Below are positions 40,825 to 42,928 of a DNA stretch of 64,000 nucleotides, piece after piece. The notes beneath the pieces were generated by a model that searched no databases, had not been told where the DNA came from, and saw only the letters and a program-made list of their open reading frames with translations. Source of the stretch: Devosia sp. Root413D1. GTDB taxonomy: Bacteria; Pseudomonadota; Alphaproteobacteria; Rhizobiales; Devosiaceae. Within the stretch, counting starts at the first letter, position 1; each line of letters begins with the position of its first letter. The translations under genes were made by a program, and so were the position numbers. The stretch lies in the NCBI RefSeq assembly GCF_001425235.1, contig NZ_LMEA01000010.1, positions 440,275 to 504,274 of the forward strand, read 5' to 3'.

Positions 40825-42306
40825 ATGGGAACTGTTCACGACTTTCCTGATGTCACCGCATCGCCGCCGGGGCTTTCCGGCTGGTCGCTGGATGTGCTGC
40901 TGGATCAGCCGGATCGACAAGGGGCCGGGCGCGCCAGGGTGCCAACCACGTTCCTCTCCGGCGTCATCGAAGGCTTTTACGGCCGGGCGTGGACGCATCC
41001 GCAGCGGATCGAGATGCTCGACTGGATCGCCAATGCCGGGATGAACAGCTTCGTCTACGGACCCAAGGATGACATCAAGATCCGCGCCCGCTGGCGCGAA
41101 CTCTACAACGCGGCGGAAGCCGTAGCCCTCCAGGAGCTGGTCGACGCGGCACGGGCGCGGCAGCTCATTTTCATGGTGGCGATCGCCCCGTGTCTCGATG
41201 TCGTCTACTCGGACGCAAGCGACCTCGAGGCGCTGAAGCGCCGGCTCGACCAGCTCCTGGACCTCGGCGTGACGCATTTCGCGCTGCTGTTCGACGATAT
41301 CCCGCGCACCATGATGCCGGCCGACGAGCGGGCCTTCCCCTCCTTCGCGGCGGCGCAGAGCTACTTCGCCAACGAGGCGTTCAAGCACGTCAAGGCGCGG
41401 GTTCCCGGAGCAGCCGTGCTGTTCTGCCCGACCGAATATTGCGCAGCGTTCGCCGGGCATGACGTGCCGGGCTCAGCCTATCTCAACAGCATCGGAGCGG
41501 AGCTCCACCCGGAGATCGGGGTGTTCTGGACCGGGCCGGATATTGTTTCGAAGACCATCAGCGCCGAGAGCCTCATCGAAGTCGGCCGGGTGCTGCGGCG
41601 CAAGCCGGTGATCTGGGAGAATTTCCACGCCAACGACTACGATATCCGCCGCGTCTATGCCGGGCCGCTGGGCGGCCGGCACGCCGATATCCTGCCGCTG
41701 ATCGACGGGATCATCACCAACCCCAATAACGAGTTCGAGGCGAACTTCGTGCCGGTGCACGCGACCGGCGCCTTTGCCGCCGGCTCCGACGACGAGGCCT
41801 CGGCCTTCGCGCTGGCGCTGAAGGCCTGGCAGCCGCGCTTCCGGCTGGCCTTTACCGGGCAGACCGAGACGCTGACGGTGGAAGAGATCCGGCTGCTGGG
41901 TGAGTTGTTCTACCAGCCGTTCCGCTGCGGGCCGCAGGTCGAGGGCCTGTTGCAATCGGCGCGGCGGCTGATGAGCGAGAAGCGGCCGGACGTGCGCAAC
42001 GAGAGCTGGCAGGATGGGCATGAGGCGCTGGTGCAGTTCCGCGACCGCATCATCGCCCTGTTCCACCGGATGACCGAGCTCGAGAACCGCGACCTGTTCT
42101 ACGCCTTCCACCCTTATCTGTGGGAAGCGCGCGAGGAGATGACGCATCTCGTCACCTATCTCGACTGGCTGGCGGGCGACCCGCCGCGCGGCGCCGAGTT
42201 CCCCGACAAGGACAGGATCTACAATTTCTACCGGCAGGGCTTCACCGTGGCGGTGCAGGAGCTGCTGCCGCGCGACGGCAGCGGGCGCTACCGGCATGGT
42301 GCTTGA
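40825..42306 (+). CDS. Cytoplasmic GH84 beta-N-acetylglucosaminidase (O-GlcNAcase-like)
   Basis: 493 aa, no signal peptide. GH84 enzymes remove beta-linked GlcNAc by substrate-assisted catalysis. Visible landmarks: [12 protein letters not shown] (45-56), [15 protein letters not shown] (78-92), the catalytic pair LLFDD (D157, D158), FCPTEYC (200-206), WTGPDIVSK (235-243), [12 protein letters not shown] (262-273) and [14 protein letters not shown] (295-308). Almost all these blocks match animal O-GlcNAcase closely, more so than secreted clostridial hyaluronidase-like members. The C-terminal ~170 residues are helical. It is translationally linked to the following GNAT (11-base overlap). With the ABC importer in front, it should act on imported GlcNAc conjugates, or on an endogenous cytoplasmic target. 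Confidence 0.93.
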
Positions 42307-42928
42307 TTTCGGTGGCGGCTACCGGCTCCGCGGGGCACTGGCCGAGGACCATGCGGCGCTCAACATGGTGTGCCTACGCACGGGCGACAGCGGCAAGGAC
42401 GCGACCGCGCGCGAGGACGATCCGGACCTGCTCGGGCTGATCTACGCCGTGCCCTACCAGGTGTACGAGCCGGATTTCGCCTTCGTGGTTGATGGGCCGA
42501 ACGGGGTCTGCGGCTATATCTTCGGGGCGCCGGATACGCCGGGAATTTACAAGAGAATGGCGGCGGAGTGGTTTCCGCCGCTGGCGGCACGGCTCGCCGA
42601 TCCGGGGCCGGACGAGAGCCGGTGGCAGGGGAGCGACTGGGCGCGATACGCAATCCGTCATCCCGAATTCGTCTACCCCGAGGTGTTGCACCGCTATCCG
42701 GCACATGGCCATATCGACCTGCTCGAGGAGGCGCGCGGCAGGGGGATCGGCCGGCGCGGCATGGAGCATGTGATGGCAAAGCTGAAGCGGGCGGGAGCCA
42801 AAGGCATGCACCTGCAGGTGAGCCCGGTGAACCGCGGGGCGCAGACGTTCTATCGCAAGCTCGGGTTCGAAGTGCTGAAGGACCCGGTGCTGCCGCGGCA
42901 CACGACGTTTATGGTGACGGGGCTTTAG
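42296..42928 (+). CDS. GNAT acetyltransferase homologous to the pseudo-HAT domain of animal O-GlcNAcase
   Basis: 210 aa. The block [43 protein letters not shown] closely follows the C-terminal pseudo-histone-acetyltransferase domain of human OGA (which has ICGYALGTVDV and SWIPFMQEKY at these places). Unlike the human domain, it keeps a normal acetyl-CoA loop ([17 protein letters not shown]) and a C-terminal [16 protein letters not shown]. It overlaps the GH84 stop by 11 bases, so the two are made together. The pair looks like a split version of the two-domain eukaryotic protein. Acetyl acceptor unknown; a glucosamine amine is one possibility. Last gene of the operon, followed by repeat B4. 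Confidence 0.88.

Follow-up and report, generated by a model that had tools for sequence, protein, structure and literature searches.

The closest described relative of the locus analysed here is the Oceanicola granulosus operon in which the gene of a GH84 glycosidase (OgOGA) is directly followed by that of a GNAT acetyltransferase (OgpAT) (Rao et al. 2013, PMC3814719). OgpAT binds acetyl-CoA with a Kd of about 8.3–8.7 µM, whereas the corresponding domain of human OGA (OGA-AT) does not, and that study identified no acceptor for OGA-AT GNATs (PMC3814719). Animal OGA combines a GH84 barrel, a stalk and a GNAT-fold domain in one polypeptide (human, PDB 5m7r; also 6r45 and 9qep, which, going by PMC12494797, we take to be from Trichoplax). 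Catalysis by the human enzyme runs through the 2-acetamido group of the substrate (PMC10636738). The animal GNAT-fold domain, or pseudo-HAT (pHAT), is introduced in a 2025 paper as non-catalytic and of unknown function, and that paper goes on to suggest that it serves as a peptide-binding dimer (PMC12494797). A bacterial pair of GH84 and GT41 proteins has been reported in Thermobaculum terrenum (PMC4683255).

A second precedent is fungal. In RmNag, a GH3 N-acetylglucosaminidase (NAGase) is joined to a GNAT that acetylates glucosamine, the transferase being required for cleavage of (GlcN)2 and not of (GlcNAc)2; a comparison with the multi-domain OGA was drawn in the same paper (PMC4680927). The locus described below resembles RmNag in coupling a NAGase to a GNAT and, as we propose, in an acetylate-then-hydrolyse logic. 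It differs in that RmNag is a fusion of a GH3 domain and a tandem GNAT with measured activity, whereas here a GH84 protein and a GNAT are encoded by separate genes and the activity is predicted. Since no entry named RmNag appears among the best 60 of 184 matches of our GNAT profile (E <= 1), the precedent is a functional one and not one of shown homology. The glucosamine/glucosaminide N-acetyltransferase of Clostridium acetobutylicum (Reith and Mayer 2011, cited in PMC4680927) can be likened to this GNAT by its description only. Among the titles and abstract openings listed in a literature search, none describes an importer-GH84-GNAT module.

We analysed a 64,000-nucleotide stretch of DNA from Devosia sp. 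Root413D1 (the window, to which positions refer; G, L and f numbers are our handles for genomes, loci and families). As the first-pass annotation had proposed, it holds a GH84 and a GNAT gene that overlap by 11 bases (42296–42306) on the same strand and in different frames. The pair is part of a seven- or eight-gene module of SIS, GntR, ABC importer, GH84 and GNAT genes, with the following features in the window:

36113 to 36874 (start may be 36850), minus strand: SIS-domain protein of the PRK02947 family (NF002805, E = 1.3e-81, above the cut-off; PF13580)
36852 to 37625 (start may be 37556), minus strand: GntR/UTRA regulator, divergent from the operon (PF07702, 3.6e-27; PF00392, 1.1e-16)
37557 to 37799, no strand: region between the divergently transcribed genes, with probable operator half-sites (repeated sequence motif)
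37791 to 39089 (start may be 37800), plus strand: ABC solute-binding protein, sugar type (PF01547, 7.4e-35; hydrophobic leader by eye)
39103 to 39996, plus strand: ABC permease A (PF00528, 6.1e-16 for the longer open reading frame from 38932; start from the codon-usage caller)
39980 to 40819, plus strand: ABC permease B (PF00528, 4.1e-21)
40825 to 42306, plus strand: GH84 β-N-acetylglucosaminidase with an OGA-type stalk, probably cytosolic
42296 to 42928, plus strand: OGA-AT-type GNAT with catalytic residues intact by sequence, overlapping the GH84 gene by 11 bases

The window shares with OgOGA-OgpAT the direct succession of a GH84 gene and an OGA-AT-type GNAT with an intact P-loop. Pairwise identities are 55.6 per cent (GH84) and 60.3 per cent (GNAT) to the O. 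granulosus proteins, and 38.9 and 24.6 per cent to human OGA. OgOGA falls inside the window's GH84 clade (support 99/98) and OgpAT inside its GNAT clade (100/99). The first-pass annotation had described bacterial homologues of each half as known; the GH84-GNAT pairing, too, has been known since 2013. The importer, GntR and SIS genes present in the window are not mentioned in the portions of PMC3814719 used here. The operon context, the distribution, a genome in which the module is split (G401) and the acceptor hypothesis are new here.

The GH84 protein is the only PF07555 match in the 5.85-Mb genome (E = 2.9e-74; 250.5 bits, passing the curated cut-off of 25). It matches OgOGA (2xsa; residues 44–492, E = 1e-159) and human OGA (5m7r; E = 2.1e-94), gives a separate match to the OGA stalk chain 5uhk_B (E = 2.2e-11), and aligns end to end with OgOGA as well as with barrel and stalk of the human enzyme. 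The conserved blocks of animal OGA that had been noticed earlier are visible in these alignments; they include LLFDDI, which both human OGA and OgOGA share at the aligned position and whose adjacent DD is the catalytic motif of GH84 (PMC4683255). No hydrophobic leader is visible by eye, and in five relatives (L055, L059, L061, L129 and L130) the earliest start codon lies only 6–8 codons before the barrel motif EGFYGR, which leaves no room for a signal peptide there. This agrees with the lack of a signal peptide asserted in the first pass, and the window's GH84 is probably cytosolic. Its start is preferred at 40939 by the codon-usage caller, but an ATG 48 codons before EGFYGR recurs in relatives.

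The GNAT matches OgpAT (3zj0; E = 4.5e-69), SsAT (4bmh; E = 1.8e-28), residues 715–910 of human OGA (E = 1.3e-13) and 6r45, which is named an O-GlcNAcase (E = 6.7e-8). Almost the entire protein can be aligned with OgpAT and with the pHAT chains of human OGA and 6r45, in agreement with the likeness to the C-terminal pseudo-HAT of human OGA that had been recognized earlier. A profile of 19 relatives ranks OGA-AT structures first (human, 3e-20; 6r45, 8e-16), the next GNAT scoring 35.8 bits. As an AlphaFold2 model from a four-sequence alignment (the window's protein and those of related loci) has a mean pLDDT of 42.3, we base the structural match on the homology of the sequence to proteins of solved structure. 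The acetyl-CoA-binding residues that the human domain has lost are kept in the window, including the loop already described as intact: RGRGIG conforms to the P-loop pattern [Q/R]xxGx[G/A], and H139, N179 and T29 correspond to His135, Asn175 and Thr25 of OgpAT, the roles of which, with that of the P-loop, are taken from PMC3814719. The window protein also aligns with 3zj0 ungapped across the OgpAT insertions 27–41 and 78–125, which form an acceptor tunnel over the catalytic site (Rao et al., PMC3814719).

Throughout the 20-row GNAT clade that contains the window's protein (group A), T29, H137, H139, D141, G148, G152, N179 and Y186 are invariant. T29, H137, H139, G152 and N179 are also invariant in comparison groups of 17, 15 and 4 rows, but are replaced in human OGA by M, L, K, A and D, respectively. 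A group A signature of E40, D41, S113, W115 and R117 is invariant in 20 of 20 rows, absent from the three comparison groups and from human OGA, and located inside the OgpAT insertions (OgpAT numbering, offset 4). We infer that group A, GNATs without GH84 included, would have one acceptor in common.

The window has the barrel, stalk and GNAT-fold domain in the same order as animal OGA; it encodes them in two overlapping genes in different frames, whereas animal OGA is a single chain of GH84, stalk and pHAT. In the GNAT tree, the human sequence lies on a branch of length 3.15 with a Streptomyces/Nonomuraea group (95/76, not starred); a clade of human pHAT with the window's GNAT group (20 rows plus human) was not recovered and is not rejected (p-AU = 0.173). 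In the GH84 tree, human OGA and Deinococcus psychrotolerans form a pair (83/68, not starred) next to the window's group, within a branch supported at 100/97, and a grouping of human OGA with the window's GH84 group alone is not rejected (p-AU = 0.337). The suggestion that the two-gene arrangement represents the ancestral state is not borne out, given the very long human pHAT branch, the clade that is neither recovered nor rejected and the group signature residues missing in human OGA. Descent of animal OGA from this operon is neither established nor refuted by the two trees. The Deinococcus psychrotolerans GH84 (L131 9004–10251) is 42.7 per cent identical to human OGA, against 36.2 per cent for OgOGA, only these and the window's protein having been compared with human; it lies near oligopeptide-type ABC genes, a GH3 gene, a MurR/RpiR regulator and a D-aminoacylase.

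Homology of GH84, stalk and GNAT to the parts of OGA, together with the probably cytosolic location of the GH84 and the GH84/GT41 pair of Thermobaculum terrenum (PMC4683255), would fit a bacterial O-GlcNAc system, that is, a split OGA/HAT in which the GH84 would strip O-GlcNAc off proteins of the same cell and the GNAT would act as a protein acetyltransferase. Animals have OGT, whereas GT41 O-GlcNAc transferase (PF13844) was found in none of the five carriers tested (the control matches 2 of 14 named genomes, Caulobacter and Synechococcus). The operon moreover includes a binding protein and permeases, and its spread is rare and patchy; on these grounds we regard such a system as very improbable. 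The view of the pair as a counterpart of O-GlcNAcase thus holds for structure, the parts being homologous, and probably fails for role, because GT41 is absent from the carriers tested and the importer context is one of sugar catabolism.

The same module, a binding protein, two permeases, GH84 and GNAT with divergent GntR and SIS genes, occurs in the window and in nine other genomes of the genus (G385, G386, G388, G391, G395, G397, G398, G399 and G402), in a single genome from each of two other genera of the family (G404 and G514; loci L057 and L059) and in both GH84 genomes of family f25 (L129 and L130). An ATPase gene, lacking from the window's operon, is added after the SIS gene in f25 (UgpC-type in L129, judged by eye in L130). 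In the Devosia insulae locus (L003), the proteins from SIS to GNAT are 94–99 per cent identical to those of the window, and the GntR gene holds the same position in related loci. The first pass had singled out the coupling with an importer and a GntR/SIS pair as deserving attention; we agree that it is the informative part.

Among 19 genomes of the genus, the GNAT (at least 57 per cent identity) is found in 14 and GH84 in 12. Across the family, GH84 is present in 14 of 136 genomes and a GNAT match of any kind in 88, comprising 18 genomes with a group A GNAT (>240 bits) and 70 with only relatives of about 34–44 per cent identity. All 14 GH84 carriers have a group A GNAT, as against 4 of the other 122 genomes (G396, G400, G500 and G501; Fisher P = 7e-16, relatedness ignored), so the two genes co-occur in other genomes, as the first-pass annotation had expected. 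They are adjacent in 13 of the 14 carriers (for G394 on the evidence of a contig with the last 156 GH84 residues) and on different contigs in G401; an ATG yields an overlap of 8 or 11 bases in 11 of the 13 adjacent loci shown.

More widely, the pair is rare and patchy. In the class sample, PF07555 matches 11 and the GNAT 6 of 385 genomes, both being present in G000, G004 and G323 and adjacent only in the window's genome. GH84 is found in 2 of 297 genomes of the order sample, both of the window's family, and in 9 of 398 of the phylum sample, with more than 50 per cent identity only for the window's and G1093. Within f25, GH84 at E <= 1e-60 occurs in 2 of 179 genomes, or in 1 of 178 as a blind rate, G1093 having been found first in the phylum sample and made the centre of the f25 search. 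The GH84 match of G1221 contains one TGA, and of its stops the one closest to the motif is 18 codons in front of it, ahead of the called start. No GNAT relative was found near GH84 in the flanks of about 1.5 kb at 9 class loci, 20 f12 loci (24 matching genomes) and 7 phylum loci. The f25 GNATs cluster with OgpAT (99/94), and the two f25 GH84s together with that of G401 cluster with OgOGA (100/99); from this grouping f25 would be a Rhodobacteraceae-like family.

This distribution bears on whether the GNAT is a mere hitchhiker, a general N-terminal or small-molecule acetyltransferase co-transcribed by chance. Outside the OGA-AT family, the solved structures closest to it (among the best 60 of 184 profile matches at E <= 1) are N-terminal acetyltransferases of the RimI type and others, related GNATs have varied neighbours, and 4 of the 18 family genomes with group A GNATs lack GH84, all of which such a reading would accommodate. 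We nevertheless consider it quite unlikely in view of the subgroup's presence in every GH84 carrier of the family, the separate copy of G401 included, its invariant signature and the recurrent short overlap with the GH84 gene.

In G401, the GH84 (L055) clusters with the f25 protein of L130 (98/93) and lies in an importer-GH84-GntR-ATPase block (L055 8452–14765), beside which neither a GNAT nor a SIS gene was found (best GNAT match in L055, E = 0.34). The GNAT and SIS genes lie together on another contig (L054 7280–9087), and the GNAT falls inside an 11-row set entirely from the window's genus (95/83). Our reading is that the importer-GH84 part was replaced and that GNAT and SIS are apparently provided in trans; this would argue for a functional tie between GNAT and GH84. 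The block itself has apparently been transferred horizontally, with an f25-like donor and a Devosia-type recipient.

Several other loci vary around the same genes. At L062 (7472–9506), the GH84 is 88 per cent identical to the window's and the adjoining GNAT just 59 per cent, which suggests that the GNAT alone has been replaced or is diverging fast. G385 has, besides an intact copy, a 63-residue fragment 67 per cent identical to the GNAT end with one in-frame TAG (L036 1501–1689; G385:C224), probably a decayed second GNAT copy. In the window, the module is adjoined on the opposite strand by a cluster at 43094–48066 (SDR, permease, binding protein, ATPase and ROK-like regulator, by eye) that is wholly or partly kept in 8 of 10 genus loci viewed and absent in L065 and L066; the GNAT adjoins the SDR gene of a cluster of this type in L053, which lacks GH84, and in L054. 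A short response-regulator-like protein and then a nitrate-type binding protein follow at 48208–50018 (by eye).

The regulatory and accessory parts of the operon can be compared in the same way. ACTGGTAT occurs at 37625 (plus strand) and 37741 (minus strand), its sole two copies in the 64-kb window, and ACTGGTTTAAACCAAT lies at 37722–37737 in the divergent intergenic region; TCATACCA is present in 12 of 17 corresponding regions (each with 30 bases either side). The operator motif was sought and not found at the G401 GNAT-SIS pair (L054), L053, L056, L057, L058, L060 and L130. The binding protein resembles NgcE only weakly (72.8 bits, cut-off 399.65). The PDB relatives found for the SIS protein are 3cvj (6.6e-50) and 9eol (1.4e-31), the latter being Streptomyces NagS (SCO4393), a GlcNAc-6-P dehydratase whose orthologues are at least 58.7 per cent identical within Streptomycetaceae (PMC12680351). 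The window protein shares the SIS fold and 8 of 9 listed NagS site residues, S91 being replaced by T, and these residues make a phosphorylated amino sugar a reasonable guess for its substrate. The match to 9eol raised the possibility that the protein is itself a NagS, which we rejected: its identity to NagS is about 32 per cent (77 of 239 alignment columns), below the NagS orthology level, and NagS activity was negligible or absent in SIS homologues with about 26–36 per cent identity to NagS (PMC12680351). As described in the portions of that paper used here, nagS lies by dmdR1 and not by GH84, whereas the window's SIS gene belongs to a GH84 module.

Genes next to other GNATs may give clues to the acceptor. 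On a Falsirhodobacter algicola plasmid (L136), genes for an ABC ATPase, a GlcNAc-kinase-like protein, a ROK protein, a DMT transporter, the GNAT, nagB and a NagA-like protein run in one direction, the GNAT ending 10 bases before nagB (TIGR00502, 283 bits, cut-off 236.9); the NagA-like gene scores below its cut-off, and the matches of the ROK gene, to ROK glucokinases and to NagC, are likewise below the cut-offs. A Duffyella locus (L137) combines a sugar ABC importer, GNAT, ATPase, ROK and GlcNAc-kinase-like gene, and at L059 a GlcNAc-kinase-like gene follows the GNAT (the kinase-like genes of L059, L136 and L137 score 98, 100 and 213 bits, all under the curated cut-off of 370). In the 17-row group to which L136 and L137 belong, ROK, ABC-importer or sugar-enzyme neighbours are present in 12 of 15 examined loci (not L070, L073 and L078; L047 and L048 were left out, L140/L141, L075/L076 and L072/L074 are close pairs, and the neighbours of L141, L076 and L072 were judged from partners or shared clusters). 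The 15-row group has ROK, importer or sugar-kinase genes among the neighbours scanned in 0 of 10 examined loci, a weak contrast, as fewer neighbours were scanned there and the genomes are importer-rich.

Two GNATs of the 15-row group each adjoin a divergent gene, of the YdjC family at L080 (9225–10061) and of the polysaccharide-deacetylase family at L082 (8827–9741), and in Deinococcus (L144 6635–7687) a PIG-L-type deacetylase adjoins a GNAT relative, with nagA four genes on. The YdjC and PIG-L families include amino-sugar deacetylases, and these three loci look as if deacetylation and re-acetylation were paired. GNAT relatives in Streptomyces and another Deinococcus have no clear sugar context. 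In four genomes of a sister genus (L069, L071, L085 and L086), another OGA-AT-like GNAT is preceded by a glutamine-amidotransferase/phosphoribosyltransferase gene and by an SDR gene.

The sugar neighbours of L136, L137 and L059 and the deacetylase-adjoining relatives hint at an amino sugar as the acceptor, which we put at slightly better than an even chance. The mixed neighbourhoods of other GNAT relatives count against it, as does the gene content of L058 and L060, where SIS-GntR-GNAT is kept, GH84 is gone, and an M20 hydrolase, a peptide-type ABC importer and an aldehyde dehydrogenase stand instead (L058 6446–17939; L060 assigned via gene clusters). This gene content could mean a peptide or amino-acid amine. 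It would then also fit a pair acting on glycopeptides or muropeptides, with the GH84 removing GlcNAc and the GNAT acetylating the freed amine of the aglycone (amino acid or peptide), thereby protecting or detoxifying it. The setting of the Deinococcus psychrotolerans GH84 and the conserved peptide-binding groove described for OgOGA (PMC3814719) speak for the same alternative. Against it, the importer beside the window's GH84 is of the sugar type, and where related GNATs have neighbours of clear metabolic function, the clearest are nagB, NagA-like and GlcNAc-kinase-like genes; we judge glycopeptides or muropeptides an unlikely target.

We are confident that the locus is a catabolic amino-sugar import operon. 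GT41 is absent from the carriers tested, the GH84 has no room for a signal peptide in relatives, as opposed to the leader of the binding protein, and the ACTGGTAT sites lie in the divergent region. A fuller scheme seems probable to us, at a lower level of confidence. In it, GntR would control the operon, and the sugar-type ABC importer would bring a small β-linked GlcNAc or GlcN glycoside into the cytosol. There, the GNAT would N-acetylate an amino sugar, either free glucosamine or a non-reducing-end glucosaminide, after which the GH84 would cleave off GlcNAc by way of the substrate's own 2-acetamido group, and the SIS protein may act on a phosphorylated product. The operator motif not being found at several loci, and the negligible or absent NagS activity of distant SIS homologues, count against this scheme.

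The conserved operon, the split module of G401 and the nagB-linked relative together offer a reason why a GNAT is tied to GH84, and they point to concrete candidate substrates, namely glucosamine, (GlcN)2 and GlcNAc glycosides. More tentatively, and with doubts that we think outweigh the attraction of the idea, the animal OGA pseudo-HAT may be the dead relic of an amino-sugar N-acetyltransferase, whose live bacterial relatives would re-acetylate glucosaminides for cleavage by a partner GH84 that needs the 2-acetamido group. If this were true, the pseudo-HAT of animals would be explained through an acetylate-then-hydrolyse operon later fused into one gene.
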